Below are positions 6,697-20,665 of a DNA stretch of 24,508 nucleotides, one piece after another (position 1 is the first letter of the stretch; the number at the start of each line of letters is the position of its first letter). The translations under genes were made by a program, and so were the position numbers. This stretch comes from a virus. The notes under the pieces were generated by a model. That model was not told the origin of the DNA, ran no database searches, and saw only the letters and a program-made list of their open reading frames with translations. The stretch covers positions 1 to 24,508 of the IMG/VR virus record IMGVR_UViG_3300048596_000029. One strand, given 5' to 3'.

Positions 6697-6783
6697 GTGG
6701 GTATCTCGTGTAGCCGACCGGCGCCGAACCTTTCACCATGCGGGGGTTTCACTGTGTCGTCCCACGTCAGGTCAGGGTTAGGT

Positions 6784-6844
6784 CACGACGCGGGCCCTGT
6801 CAGCGTCGTGGTGACGCGGTGTCACACCACTGTGGGGTAATAAT
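6784..6844 (+). promoter_or_regulatory. Possible promoter region of the small-gene operon
   Basis: TAATAAT (6838-6844) is a rare AT-rich patch 31 bases before the ATG at 6875 and could be a -10 box; no convincing -35 box is spaced correctly. Upstream lie an 8-bp inverted repeat (CACGACGC 6784-6791, GCGTCGTG 6803-6810) and the small palindrome GTGTCACAC (6819-6827), both possible regulator sites. The gap from 6632 to 6874 is the divergent control region between the minus-strand island and this operon. Confidence 0.4.
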
Positions 6845-10038: not shown

Positions 10039-10115
10039 CGCGCTGTGGAGCAGTTCGGTAGCTCGTTGGGCTCATAACCCAGAGGTCGCCAGTTCGAATC
10101 TGGCCAGCGCCACCA
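10039..10115 (+). tRNA. Initiator-type tRNA-Met (anticodon CAU), CCA encoded
   Basis: The cloverleaf is complete: acceptor CGCGCTG / CAGCGCC, D stem GAGC / GCTC, anticodon stem TTGGG / CCCAG around CTCATAA, T arm GCCAG-TTCGAAT-CTGGC, A73 and an encoded CCA (10113-10115). Three bacterial initiator marks are present: position 1 and 72 do not pair (C against C), the second D-stem pair is A11-U24, and three G-C pairs end the anticodon stem. It therefore should be formylated and used to start translation. It lies between the early operon and the late genes, in the same direction. A host attachment-site tRNA is the alternative. Confidence 0.93.
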
Positions 10116-12589: not shown

Positions 12590-13939
12590 ATGCCGGCAGC
12601 GAAGCGCACCAAGACCAACCTGGATGTCGCACCGCGGTACGTCGACTACGTCCCCCTGGCCGACGTGCAACTCGCACCACGCAACGCCAAAGGCCACGCA
12701 GCGGACGCGATCAACAAGTCGATCGGCCACTTCGGGTTCGCGGAACTCCCGCTGCTCGACGAACGCACCGGCCGCCTCGTCGCCGGCCACGGCCGCCACG
12801 AACAGCTGGTCGCCATGCACACCGCTGGCGGCGATCCACCAGACGGCGTACGTGTCGACGACACCGGCACCTGGTTCATGCCCGTCATCCGCGGCTGGGC
12901 CTCCCGCTCCGACGCCGACGCCGACGCCGACGCCTACTTGATCGCCTCCAACCAGCTCACCACCAAAGGCGGCTGGGAAGACCGCGGCCTCGCCGAAATC
13001 CTCGAAGAACTCCAGGACGCACACCTGCTCGAACTCACCGGGTTCGACGACGACGACCTGACCCGCCTACTGGACGACATTGCCAGCGAGGAGCCCGAAC
13101 CGACTGGCGCGGGCGGCGACGCGGACAGCGTTCCCGACGCCCCAGCCGATCCGGTATCCAAACCGGGGGATCTGTGGCTGTTGGGCCGACATCGGCTGCT
13201 GTGTGGCGATGCGACCAACCCGGACGACATTGACCGGGTGCGCGGCGGCGAGGAACCGTCCGTGATCTACACCGATCCGCCTTACGGGATCAGCATCGTT
13301 AAGGGCACAGGGAAGGTAGGCCATCACCCGGGCATGCCGTTCGGTGGGCGCGTCGGTGGCGGCTTGGTCGTTCCGACCACAAAGTACTTGCCAGTCGCGG
13401 GGGACGACACCACTGATGTTGCTGCGGATACCTTTCGTCTGCTCACCACCATGTACCCATCTGCCAGGCACGTTTGGTGGGGCGGCAACCACTATGCAGG
13501 ATCAGCGGGACTTCCTGACGCGTCGTGCTGGCTGATCTGGGACAAAGAGAACAACGGCCACTTCGCTGACGCGGAGTTGGCGTGGACCAACCACCCTGGC
13601 GCCGTGCGGCTGCTACGGCACATGTGGAACGGCATGCTGCGCGCTTCCGAACGCGGCGGTGGCGTTCGGGTTCATCCGACCCAGAAGCCTGTCGCGCTCG
13701 CCGAGTGGGCGTTCAGTGTCGTCGACTCCGACAACGAACGCCGCGTCGTGCTGGACGTCTTCGCTGGTTCCGGCTCCACCCTGATCGCGGCTCACCGGAC
13801 GGATCGGACGGCGCTGCTGATCGAGATGGAGCCGCACTACGTGGACGTGATCTGTCGCCGGTTCCAGGAGTCCACCAGCACGCTGCCGGTCCTTGAGTCG
13901 ACTGGCGAAGAGCATGACTTCACCACCACCGACGACTAG
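12590..13939 (+). CDS. ParB-like domain fused to beta-class DNA methyltransferase
   Basis: This encodes 449 residues from ATG 12590 (GAGGGGAG upstream). Residues 15-130 resemble a ParB/Srx N-terminal domain (VPLADVQLAPRNAKGHA; GRLVAGHGRHEQL at 61-73). A hexanucleotide repeat (GACGCC four times, about 12910-12933) codes Asp-Ala repeats. The methyltransferase part has the target-binding motif TDPPYG (DPPY 229-232) before the AdoMet motif FAGSGST (391-397), which is the beta-class order; DPPY suggests an amino-methyltransferase (adenine N6 or cytosine N4). The likely role is protection of phage DNA from restriction. No cognate endonuclease is adjacent. Codon use in the methyltransferase half looks less GC-biased than the ParB half, hinting at a mosaic origin. 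Confidence 0.9.
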   Translation: MPAAKRTKTNLDVAPRYVDYVPLADVQLAPRNAKGHAADAINKSIGHFGFAELPLLDERTGRLVAGHGRHEQLVAMHTAGGDPPDGVRVDDTGTWFMPVIRGWASRSDADADADAYLIASNQLTTKGGWEDRGLAEILEELQDAHLLELTGFDDDDLTRLLDDIASEEPEPTGAGGDADSVPDAPADPVSKPGDLWLLGRHRLLCGDATNPDDIDRVRGGEEPSVIYTDPPYGISIVKGTGKVGHHPGMPFGGRVGGGLVVPTTKYLPVAGDDTTDVAADTFRLLTTMYPSARHVWWGGNHYAGSAGLPDASCWLIWDKENNGHFADAELAWTNHPGAVRLLRHMWNGMLRASERGGGVRVHPTQKPVALAEWAFSVVDSDNERRVVLDVFAGSGSTLIAAHRTDRTALLIEMEPHYVDVICRRFQESTSTLPVLESTGEEHDFTTTDD

Positions 13940-17738: not shown

Positions 17739-18175
17739 CGGGCCACCCGACCAGGGCCGCCGACGCCGCACCGTTCACCCCTGGCGTTGTACCCGGCGAA
17801 CCATTGCCCAACCAGGACCAGGAGGTGACTGATGGACCCGGGGCACCCGACCAGGGCGCAGGACGTGCAAGCCCTGATCGCCAAGAGGATCGACTGACCG
17901 GGTTCGGTCCCGCGCTCGACGCACTGAAAGCCGGCCGGGCGGTCACCCGCCACAGTTGGGATGGGCTGCAGGGGACAACCGTGTGGCTCGTCCTCGTGCC
18001 CGGCTCCCGGGTCACCGTCGAGGCCGGGCGCCCGCTCGCCGTGGCGGCACCGCACATGATCGGGCAACCCTTCAACTACGGCACCCACATCGATCGATTC
18101 GACGCTGGTGTCCTGGCGCCGTGGGCACCCACCACCGCAGACCTGCTCGCTGACGACTGGTGGACCATCCCCTAA
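17735..18175 (+). CDS. tad2: DUF2829/Tad2-like protein, candidate Thoeris anti-defence
   Basis: The frame is 146 residues from ATG 17735. Residues 57-146 match the DUF2829 layout: FGPALDALKAGRAVTRHSWDG, VWLVLVPGS (83-91), THIDRFD (117-123) and WAPTTADLLADDW (130-142). Tad2, the characterised member, binds the cyclic ADP-ribose signal of Thoeris defence and so prevents abortive infection. The first 55 residues are Pro/Gly-rich and unlike the family, so the start is uncertain: GTG 17825, or CTG 17894 overlapping the stop of a 21-codon frame with a strong RBS, are alternatives. The family call is good; activity here is inferred. Confidence 0.8.
   Translation: MTGHPTRAADAAPFTPGVVPGEPLPNQDQEVTDGPGAPDQGAGRASPDRQEDRLTGFGPALDALKAGRAVTRHSWDGLQGTTVWLVLVPGSRVTVEAGRPLAVAAPHMIGQPFNYGTHIDRFDAGVLAPWAPTTADLLADDWWTIP
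17832..17897 (+). CDS. 21-residue ORF with strong RBS overlapping the Tad2-like gene
   Basis: ATG 17832 has AGGAGGT five bases upstream, stronger than most sites here. The product MDPGHPTRAQDVQALIAKRI plus Asp is in a different frame from the Tad2-like protein and stops at the point where the DUF2829 domain begins. Its HPTRA segment repeats that of the frame starting at 17735, because CACCCGACCAGGGC occurs at 17744-17757 and exactly 100 bases later at 17844-17857. It may be a leader peptide that couples translation, or a leftover of a duplicated gene start. Confidence 0.4.
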   Translation: MDPGHPTRAQDVQALIAKRID

Positions 18176-18234
18176 CTGGGGCCCGCCGCACCCTGTCACC
18201 TCCCCAACCCTGCACACGGAAAGGCGGGCGCGTT

Positions 18235-18930
18235 GTGTCCGGCGACCAGATCCCCCTCGTCACCAACAGGTCCAACTCGGGCGCGGCCATCGCAGACACG
18301 CTCGTAGCCACCCAGTCCGCCACCGCCCCCGTCATCACCCTGACCAACCAAGGCACGGCCCCCGGCACCCCATCCGGTGGGGACGTGCTCTACGCCACCT
18401 CAGCGGGTGTGTTGACCTACAAGAACCCGCAGGGCCTCGTGTCCACCCTGGTCGGCTCCCAAGGCGGCCTGACCGCAACCACGACCGTCGCGACCACTAC
18501 GGCCGCGACCGCGCTGCAGTCCCTGGCCATCCCCGCCGCCGACGCCATCGCAGGCGCCGTATACCGGCTGGTCGGGTGGGGCGTCTACTCCGACACCGGC
18601 ACACCCACCCTGGCGTTCACCTCAACATTCGGGGCCACCGGTATCGCCGCGGTTCCTGCGGTCACCCTCGGGTCCGGGGTGTCCAACGTCCCGTTCCGGT
18701 ACGAGGCGACCCTGGACTTCTACACGACCACCACAGCCATGGGCAGCATCCAGCTGTCACTCGGCACCTCGGCCAGCACCAACGCCGCAAGCCTGTTCGT
18801 GTCCACCCCGACCGCAGCCGTCACGGTGGGTGTCACGGCGCAAGCGTTCGCCGTCAACGTGACCTGGTCCGCGTCATCCGCGTCGAACACGATTTCTTTG
18901 CTCGGTGGCTACTCGGAACGCGTCGCCTAA
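18235..18930 (+). CDS. Beta-rich Thr/Ala protein, candidate minor structural protein
   Basis: This encodes 231 residues from GTG 18235 (GGAAAGG upstream). It is rich in Thr, Ala, Ser and Val with alternating strands. LYATSAGVLTYKNPQGLVSTL near residue 55-75 resembles the linker found in many phage fibre and tail-associated proteins. The C-terminal 140 residues look like a single beta-sandwich (VYRLVGWGVYSDTGTPTLAF, FRYEATLDFYTTTTAMGS). It sits between the anti-defence gene and the MuF-type gene. A head decoration or fibre role is plausible; no family could be fixed. Confidence 0.65.
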   Translation: MSGDQIPLVTNRSNSGAAIADTLVATQSATAPVITLTNQGTAPGTPSGGDVLYATSAGVLTYKNPQGLVSTLVGSQGGLTATTTVATTTAATALQSLAIPAADAIAGAVYRLVGWGVYSDTGTPTLAFTSTFGATGIAAVPAVTLGSGVSNVPFRYEATLDFYTTTTAMGSIQLSLGTSASTNAASLFVSTPTAAVTVGVTAQAFAVNVTWSASSASNTISLLGGYSERVA

Positions 18931-18968: not shown

Positions 18969-19061
18969 GTGAAGCTGCTGTTCGTGGGGGTGGTCGGGCT
19001 GTACGCGATCGTGATCGTGGGCGCGCCGATGTGGGTGGAACTCGTGCGGTTGTTTCAGTGA
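18969..19061 (+). CDS. Possible 30-residue single-span membrane peptide
   Basis: GTG 18969 opens 30 codons: VKLLFVGVVGLYAIVIVGAP followed by MWVELVRLFQ, one membrane segment. The upstream ribosome site is weak. It lies in the short gap between the structural candidate and the minus-strand tRNA-like gene. The frame is also open upstream, so coding status is uncertain. Confidence 0.35.
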   Translation: MKLLFVGVVGLYAIVIVGAPMWVELVRLFQ

Positions 19062-19063
19062 AG

Positions 19064-19124
19064 TGGCGGGTGGGACCGGATTCGAACCGGTGACCCGGGG
19101 CTCTAGCCACTGAGCTACCCACCC
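19064..19124 (-). tRNA. tRNA-like gene lacking the anticodon arm
   Basis: Read on the minus strand, the 7-bp acceptor stem is perfect (GGGTGGG / CCCACCC), followed by T8 A9, a perfect D arm (GCTC-AGTGGCTA-GAGC), then only eight bases (CCCGGGTC) where about 22 are normal, then a perfect T arm (ACCGG-TTCGAAT-CCGGT), discriminator G and an encoded CCA. The whole is 61 bases. No anticodon stem-loop can be formed, so it cannot decode. It may be a tRNA gene with a precise internal loss, or a tRNA mimic that still serves as a substrate for tRNA enzymes. It is opposite to the flanking genes. Confidence 0.8.
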
Positions 19125-19147
19125 CGCGTCAGCAAGTGTAGGCGGGG

Positions 19148-20665
19148 GTGGCGGTTGTGCCCGGCTGCATGGTCGCCCTCTACCCGCCTGCCGAGACCGC
19201 GAACCTGCTGTGCCGTGCGGACGGGGAACCGGTCGGCGACCTGCATTGCACGGTCGCCTACCTCGGGTCCGCCGACGACGTGGACCTGGAAGCCGTCCTC
19301 GCCGCGGTCACGCCGCTCGTGGGGCGGCCCCCGGTCGAAGCGGTGATCTCGGGGCATGGCCGGTTCACCGGCGGCCCGGATGGGGATGTGCTGGTCGCGT
19401 TGGTCGACGCGTCGGCATTGGAGCAGCTCCGGCGGGACGTGGTAGACGCGCTCACCGGGGCGGGCATCAAGATCCCTGCGGAGCACGGCTACACCGCGCA
19501 CGTCACCCTCGCCTACCTCCCGGAAAGCACGCCGTCCGGTGTTCACCGCATGCCACCCATGGAGGTGTCGTTCGGGGCGTTGACGGTCAAGCACGGCGAC
19601 AACCGGATCGATCTCCTGTTCGGGGGTGACCCGGCCGCGGCCGAAGCGATCGCACCGTACGCCCGTACCGCATACGCGCAAGGGTGGGCCGCGTCCGGCG
19701 GCCCCATGACAGACACGGTCCGCGCGGGATGCGTCGCCGCGGTCGAGAACGCGATCGACCACGCCGGTGACCCGGCCATCCTCGAAGTCACCCTCCGCCT
19801 CGGCCACCTCGAAGGGACCTGGGCCGCCGTCTACGACCGGCGGGAACGACTCGCCGCGAAACACATCACGGCGGTCGCCGCGGCGTGGCGGTCCGCGGCC
19901 CGGCGCCTGGACCTGTCGGTGGCGATCGCCCGATACCGGGCATCGATCGGCCTCACCGAAACCGCCGACGACCAGGCGGCGAAAGACCACCGGAAGATGG
20001 TCGCCAAAGCCATCGCCAACGCCGTCCTCTACGCCATCGCCTCCGCCGAGGCCGCGTCACCCGCAGCGCGGGACCCGGTGATCACCGCGTTGGCGGACGC
20101 GTTGAAAGACGCCCAAGCCGAGGGGTGGGCCGCCGCGGTCGCGGTGTCCGCGGACCGGGTCGGCCTGATCGGCATCGACTTCGACCTCGCGTTCCAGGAC
20201 GCCTGGGACGCCCTCGGTGACCTCGGCGTGTATTGGGCGGACGCCGCCGGATGGTTGGGGGAGATCACCAAAGGCCTCACCCACGACCTCGGCACCGTCC
20301 TCGCGCGCCTCGGCCAGGAACGCGCCAGCTACAGCGACATGCTCGACGAGGCCGAACAGATCCTGACCGGGGTTGATCTCGGCACCGTCTCCACGGTCGT
20401 CGATATGGCCATGGCCCAGTCCTTCTCGCGCGGCGCACTCACCCTCTACCAGCGTGAAGGCGTCCAAACCGTCGACTACATCACGGCGGGCGGCGCACGG
20501 GTGTGCCCGCGCTGTGAGGACTACGAGGCGAAGAACCCGTGGCCCATCACCGACGTCCCGTCACCGGCCGTGCATCCGCATTGTCGCTGCGTGCTCGCCG
20601 CATCCAATCCGCTGGAAGCGCTCGACACGCTCACTGCCTACGCCACCGGAGGAGGCGCGACGTGA
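19148..20665 (+). CDS. 2H phosphoesterase domain fused to MuF-type minor head protein
   Basis: This encodes 505 residues from GTG 19148 (GTG 19157 also possible). Residues 1-160 are a 2H phosphoesterase (LigT/CPDase-like) domain, with the two catalytic motifs H33-C-T35-V in LHCTVAYLG and H118-V-T120-L in YTAHVTLAYLP. A long helical middle (180-440) leads to the MuF-type C-terminus: VCPRCEDYEAKNPWPI (Cys453, Cys456) and HPHCRCVL (476-482), the metal-binding end typical of SPP1 gp7/Mu F head proteins. 2H enzymes open cyclic or 2'-5' phosphodiester bonds; MuF proteins are built into the head and can enter the cell with the DNA. An injected nucleotide-cleaving enzyme is the inference. Confidence 0.88.
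   Translation: MAVVPGCMVALYPPAETANLLCRADGEPVGDLHCTVAYLGSADDVDLEAVLAAVTPLVGRPPVEAVISGHGRFTGGPDGDVLVALVDASALEQLRRDVVDALTGAGIKIPAEHGYTAHVTLAYLPESTPSGVHRMPPMEVSFGALTVKHGDNRIDLLFGGDPAAAEAIAPYARTAYAQGWAASGGPMTDTVRAGCVAAVENAIDHAGDPAILEVTLRLGHLEGTWAAVYDRRERLAAKHITAVAAAWRSAARRLDLSVAIARYRASIGLTETADDQAAKDHRKMVAKAIANAVLYAIASAEAASPAARDPVITALADALKDAQAEGWAAAVAVSADRVGLIGIDFDLAFQDAWDALGDLGVYWADAAGWLGEITKGLTHDLGTVLARLGQERASYSDMLDEAEQILTGVDLGTVSTVVDMAMAQSFSRGALTLYQREGVQTVDYITAGGARVCPRCEDYEAKNPWPITDVPSPAVHPHCRCVLAASNPLEALDTLTAYATGGGAT

Follow-up and report, generated by a model that had tools for sequence, protein, structure and literature searches.

An antisense element among viral head genes belongs to a recurrent class of tRNA-like RNAs without an anticodon arm

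A tRNA-like element in the head gene region

The viral record IMGVR_UViG_3300048596_000029 is a fragment from the IMG/VR collection, and the window analyzed here is the whole stretch of its positions 1 to 24,508. The plus strand of the record encodes a terminase, a portal protein, a major head protein, and a MuF-like head protein that has a 2H phosphoesterase domain at its N terminus, as assigned with Pfam and PHROGs. Directly upstream of the MuF gene, and antisense to it, lies a 61-nucleotide element that has the form of a transfer RNA (tRNA) without an anticodon arm (Table 1). An initial annotation, made from the letters of the window alone, had described its acceptor, D and T arms as intact, its CCA end as encoded, and its anticodon arm as replaced by eight bases, and had placed it between the head genes and antisense to them; both the anatomy and the location were borne out when the sequence was reread.

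Followed along the minus strand from 19124 to 19064, the element reads GGGTGGG TA GCTC AGTGGCTA GAGC CCCGGGTC ACCGG TTCGAAT CCGGT CCCACCC G CCA. All seven acceptor pairs are Watson-Crick, the D and T stems are complete with four and five pairs, and the residues U8, A14, G18G19 and T54-T55-C56 are present, as are a discriminator G and the encoded CCA. The D and T stems are linked by 8 nucleotides, compared with 23 in a tRNA; within this connector C26 and G44 close a loop of two nucleotides, positions 45 to 48 follow, and C48 pairs with G15. With permissive filters the Rfam tRNA model (RF00005) covers the full length of the element and scores 46.7 bits, the gathering threshold being 29 (E value 2.6e-9 for 201 bases), and 18 model positions of the anticodon part are reduced to 3 nucleotides. 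This score places the element far beyond chance. Its folding energy is unremarkable on its own (z -1.8). Neither ARAGORN nor Rfam at default filters calls the element, and ARAGORN called no transfer-messenger RNA (tmRNA) in the window. The tRNA covariance model recognizes the element, which has no anticodon arm with which a codon could be read.

Table 1. Positions of the element, its parts and adjacent features in the window
Feature	Position	Strand	Basis
Armless tRNA-like element, whole, 61 nucleotides with encoded CCA	19064..19124	-	Sequence; RF00005 46.7 bits; single copy in the record
Acceptor stem, 5' strand GGGTGGG (partner 19068-19074)	19118..19124	-	7/7 pairs; covariation in the class
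D arm, GCTC AGTGGCTA GAGC	19100..19115	-	4/4 pairs; double changes at 2/4 pairs in the class
8-nucleotide connector CCCGGGTC replacing the anticodon arm	19092..19099	-	26-44 class statistics; 15-48 covariation
T arm, ACCGG TTCGAAT CCGGT	19075..19091	-	5/5 pairs; covariation
Acceptor stem, 3' strand CCCACCC	19068..19074	-	Sequence
Discriminator G and encoded CCA	19064..19067	-	Sequence; CCA encoded by few class members
Neighboring head gene, 2H phosphoesterase domain and MuF-like minor head protein	19148..20665	+	Pfam, PHROGs
Other flanking gene, 256 amino acids, no family match	18160..18930	+	Pfam, PHROGs
Possible -10 hexamer TACACT, 10 nucleotides upstream of the element	19135..19140	-	By eye; weak

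Recurrence of the class and selection on its fold

A diverged relative of the window, contig L011, shares with it 80% identity in the major head protein, 67% in the portal and 52% in MuF, and carries an armless element at the identical gene junction and in the identical orientation: GGCGGGG TA GCTC AGTGGTCA GAGC GAGTGGTTGC GCAGG TTCGACT CCTGC TCCCGCC. Direct reading of the two elements reveals that pairs 3-70 and 4-69 of the acceptor and 49-65 and 51-63 of the T stem have changed on both sides and are still paired; the L011 connector has 10 nucleotides versus 8 in the window. The initial annotation had weighed a very recent deletion against retention as a tRNA mimic and had proposed that related phages be compared for an armless form or a full tRNA. 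The armless form of L011, at the same site and with compensatory stem changes, shows that the deletion is not recent and, together with the use of the 8-nucleotide design by dozens of unrelated phages, decides the matter in favor of retention. The assembly error that was also considered there is ruled out because armless elements recur in cultured phages and in independent assemblies. No close DNA relatives of the head region were found among GenBank phages.

In an unbiased scan of 2.9 million viral contigs of IMG/VR, the pattern was a D arm and a T arm of tRNA type with 5 to 18 nucleotides between them (connectors of 2 to 15 nucleotides); we obtained 61 loci, whose connector lengths peak sharply at 8. 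With a second scan of 84,980 bacterial and archaeal genomes, from which hits with a masked N inside were excluded, and with further scans, the final set came to 39 distinct elements with 8-nucleotide connectors and six with 9. The acceptor stem was absent from the search pattern of the first scans, and among the 27 distinct 8-nucleotide elements from the first viral and genome scans the acceptor is nonetheless complete in 22 and has at least six of its seven pairs in 24. When the D stem was relaxed in a further scan, the distinct hits split cleanly: 33 combined an acceptor of at least six pairs with a complete D stem of four, 1 had such an acceptor without the D stem, 9 had the D stem without the acceptor, and 5 had neither. 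The consensus core had no match at 1e-4 in plasmids or in complete E. coli genomes.

A second population in the bacterial genome scan, with unpaired acceptors and a connector of about 11 nucleotides, lies outside the class and is made up largely of permuted tRNA-like units. Each such unit runs from a T arm through the acceptor 3' strand, a short loop and the acceptor 5' strand to a D arm, and its 7-base-pair acceptor hairpin is perfect. Units of this kind are present in Bacteroidota genomes (L105, L114, L089, L137, L101 and others), in an Enterococcus Schiekvirus (L196, about 1501-1567) and in Microbacterium phage BAjuniper (L197, 1507-1560), and one search tallied 37 loci. In phages and Bacteroidota alike they resemble circularly permuted tRNA genes or tRNA arrays linked by hairpins.

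Selection on the fold of the class was assessed by covariation in 32 aligned 8-nucleotide elements. Stem cells are paired in 99.1% of cases, and double-change cells number 150 compared with 40.6 in shuffles, with double changes at 13 of the 17 pairs. The elements had been picked partly for acceptor pairing, so that the acceptor count is somewhat favored; the D, T, 15-48 and 26-44 pairs are less affected. At each of six acceptor pairs, five or six of the six standard pair types occur; 7-66 is predominantly G-C, and all four bases serve as discriminators. Every element forms the tertiary Levitt pair 15-48, as G-C in 27 cases and as A-U in 5. A new feature diagnostic of the class is a pair between the first and fourth connector positions (tRNA 26 and 44), which enclose two bases; it is Watson-Crick in 27 of 34 elements and includes all four pair types; the shuffle mean is 14.7, and 0 of 20,000 shuffles matched the observed count. 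Position 26 of the class is mostly a pyrimidine paired to 44, whereas in 32 ordinary full-length tRNAs that share the D and T motifs it is nearly always a purine, and 26-44 is Watson-Crick in 5 of them. Since 26 and 44 are paired and position 26 is unlike that of tRNAs, the RNAs of this class are not simply ordinary tRNAs with a clipped arm; they have a core of their own, complete in its acceptor, D and T arms, elbow contacts and 15-48 pair, with a base pair and two enclosed bases standing in for the anticodon arm. The window element shows the stems of 7, 4 and 5 base pairs, a connector in the 8- to 9-nucleotide range, the Watson-Crick 26-44 pair and the 15-48 pair, and its anatomy, together with the recurrence and covariation of the design, makes it a member of a recurrent phage-borne class of anticodon-armless tRNA-like RNAs. 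That this class is real and under selection is almost certain.

The carriers are phages or prophages of Actinomycetota, Bacillota and Bacteroidota and probably also of Pseudomonadota. Prophage carriers were identified in Microbacterium (L094, L113, L122), Corynebacterium flavescens (L067), Streptococcus porci (L080), Lactobacillus xujianguonis (L120), Lacticaseibacillus (L066, L076) and Weissella bombi (L082), and an Oleispira metagenome-assembled genome (L069) is also a carrier. The cultured Polaribacter phages Danklef_1-5 carry the element, annotated there as tRNA-OTHER with an undetermined anticodon. Relatives of the Microbacterium prophages, namely Rhodococcus REQ3, Streptomyces Raleigh, Gordonia Angelique and GMA1, have no element.

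Neighboring genes assigned with PHROGs encode the major head protein and then a head-tail adaptor (L006 group), the major head and then a tail protein (L010 group), scaffold and then major head (L172), scaffold and major head (L176), a minor head protein (L059), terminase (L014, L016, L027, L031, L055, L061, L076) or DNA polymerase (L004, L042, L169). Most carrier loci have no other tRNA nearby. Five carriers contain tRNAs called by ARAGORN with 2- or 4-base anticodons (L040 3288-3365, L054 708-782, L066 5026-5100, L166 10720-10793, L188 3854-3929); these have anticodon loops of 6 or 8 nucleotides and may not decode normally. A very strong hairpin (upstream minimum free energy about -35 to -40 kcal/mol) ends 4 to 6 nucleotides before the element in the L006 group, L021 and L038, which are Microbacterium-type prophages, and is not class-wide. 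An upstream hairpin or terminator, seen in the L006 group, L010, L167 and L195, was rejected as a feature of the class, as was the distance to the next start codon, which is the same as for isolated tRNAs.

Elsewhere in the window, an open reading frame at 18969-19061, between the 256-amino-acid gene and the element, encodes a 30-residue, one-helix hydrophobic peptide that could be a small membrane protein. A lone ordinary tRNA-Met(CAT) is located at 10039-10115, with a similar CAT tRNA in relative L240 at 6735-6812, and a ParB-like domain is fused with an N6/N4 DNA methyltransferase at 12590-13936. The 2H phosphoesterase domain at the N terminus of MuF varies as a module: among the relatives (L202-L246) some have it, and others keep the MuF part without it. 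A link between the element and this domain was considered and rejected, as many relatives have a 2H-MuF protein and no element.

Proposed function and rival explanations

Across the class a fixed tRNA-shaped fold that cannot decode is combined with variable acceptor sequence, discriminator and orientation. A fixed shape with free sequence suggests that the partner reads the acceptor/elbow body and not an identity element, and the varying orientation suggests an action in trans and speaks against a role confined to cis. We therefore favor, with a probability of about 0.55, a trans-acting tRNA-shaped mimic that binds a protein recognizing the acceptor/elbow half. Such an RNA would probably be transcribed in the manner of phage tRNAs, have its ends trimmed by ribonuclease P (RNase P) and 3' tRNA-processing enzymes of the host, with CCA added or kept, and would probably accumulate as a non-decoding species of about 58 to 61 nucleotides. 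It would then most likely occupy in trans, irrespective of sequence, a protein that reads the acceptor/elbow half. Candidate partners are a toxin or defense enzyme that modifies tRNA 3' ends, or a host enzyme of tRNA maturation or turnover. The simplest mechanism would be a decoy or inhibitor matured by the tRNA-processing enzymes of the host. A further proposal, that phages of at least three and probably four phyla deploy the armless tRNA core as a sequence-independent decoy blocking a host defense or toxin (or tRNA) enzyme, is tentative and less likely than not. The initial annotation had also suggested a decoy for aminoacylation or CCA enzymes; with acceptor pairs and a discriminator that are free to vary, charging by a single synthetase is unlikely.

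Several observations weigh against the mimic. Some 25 other relatives that span the portal-to-MuF stretch have no element where the window and L011 have one, and a stricter pattern found none elsewhere in 23 related records; because most relatives of the window lineage are without it, the element is dispensable and accessory. The pattern is also rare in bacterial genomes (2/398 and 4/397). In addition, a promoter belonging to the element is weakly supported: the possible -10 hexamer of the window has a counterpart, TATACT, upstream on the element's strand in L011, both being weak and spotted by eye, no sigma-70 match was obtained at the scan threshold, and MAFFT leaves the two hexamers out of register.

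The main rival to a trans-acting mimic is a cis-acting processing or regulatory element, at which RNase P and 3' processing would cut late mRNAs and thereby set their ends and stability, as in MALAT1/mascRNA. In accord with this idea, 25 of the 37 elements with genes called on both sides are sense to both neighbors, 15 of 42 end within 60 nucleotides of the next start codon, the element adjoins the major capsid gene in L006, L010 and L172, and in L033 it lies between genes that are tail-like by position; in several lineages it sometimes comes right after a strong hairpin. Start-codon distances and upstream hairpins, however, match those of ordinary phage tRNAs (11 of 40 for the former; p 0.29 for the latter), and RNase P would have no need of a conserved D arm, 15-48 pair or 26-44 pair. 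Moreover, for 4 elements, those of the window, L011, L026 and L175, both neighbors lie on the opposite strand. Cis processing does not fit the window element, which is antisense to the head operon, and the processing signal suggested in the initial annotation is therefore a poor fit here, though it could still hold for sense-oriented members; for the class we consider a cis role unlikely. A functionless remnant, that is, a tRNA gene recently stripped of its anticodon arm, would account for the strong match to the tRNA model and for the absence of the element from most relatives, as with disposable genes. This explanation is already largely refuted, and very improbable, given the armless element of L011 at this junction with its compensated stems, the convergence of connector length among unrelated phages, the covariation of the stems, and the frequent pairing of a position 26 pyrimidine with 44, which is unlike a clipped ordinary tRNA.

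Two further explanations have slimmer prospects still. The element might be a phage attachment site (attP) or be left over from integration, in which case a piece of tRNA would have been retained to serve as attP or to be targeted by other elements. Halves of tRNAs are often found in attP sites (PMC10865867), and lactococcal P335-group phages have a short-armed tRNA-like sequence beside the integrase/lysin region. For attP, however, one tRNA half suffices, yet both halves covary here as RNA, and no tyrosine-integrase box II motif was found within 3 kb of the tested class members or anywhere in the window, in a search that did not extend to serine integrases. The initial annotation had raised, in addition, a decoy specifically for anticodon nucleases. 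Nucleases of the PrrC/VapC type act on the anticodon loop and stem, and are poor candidates because that target is missing from the element, which would leave them nothing to cut and little to bind. A point on the side of this decoy is that phage tRNAs with altered anticodon loops are proposed to evade such enzymes (PMC10264068).

Comparison with known tRNA-like RNAs

Accounts of phage tRNAs have long invoked codon use or a resistance to enzymes that cut tRNA. Here a tRNA shape is conserved that does not decode, which uncouples the tRNA fold from translation, and the class represents a clean, testable handle on which host or defense proteins see the tRNA body. The literature searched, which excluded subscription papers, contained no account of phage tRNA-like genes that lack an anticodon arm, and the class is apparently undescribed so far. 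Because ARAGORN and default-filter Rfam miss the window element, annotations may greatly understate how common the class is; its consensus of an 8- to 9-nucleotide connector, a 26-44 pair and a 15-48 pair now makes annotation possible.

Like ordinary phage tRNAs, the element has acceptor, D and T arms with their core contacts, is a small gene between phage genes, and scores above the gathering threshold of RF00005. Unlike them, it has no anticodon arm and cannot decode, and in the class 26-44 is Watson-Crick with a 2-nucleotide loop, in place of a mostly purine-purine combination. The tRNA-like domain of tmRNA (SsrA) is likewise a tRNA upper half without a normal anticodon arm; the element differs in having no mRNA part, tag or linking helix and in its complete D stem, and has G3-C70 where tmRNA has the alanine identity pair G3-U70. 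The tRNA-like RNA from the 3' end of MALAT1, mascRNA, is a eukaryotic, tRNA-shaped RNase P substrate of about 61 nucleotides that serves no translational role and keeps a small anticodon-like arm. The size, shape and place outside translation are shared with the element, whereas mascRNA is a 3'-end processing signal of a long RNA and the window element is antisense. The armless mitochondrial tRNAs of Romanomermis are without the D arm, the T arm or both but retain an anticodon arm (PMC7730189); these too are minimal tRNAs with missing arms, and the loss in the phage class is the reverse. A further comparison is with the tRNA-like sequences of lactococcal P335, bIL309, D2544 and ul36 (L193, about 197-260; L194, L198, L199). 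In many P335-group phages such sequences lie close to integrase, lysin or repressor genes, and they might represent attP or the motif that PMC2864571 lists as "Lacto-int". They resemble the class in their acceptor stem (7 of 7 pairs), T arm and shortened middle, and differ in an altered D stem, in a mini hairpin (ACC GTTC GGT) in place of the arm, and in their location near the integrase, and are probably separate from it.
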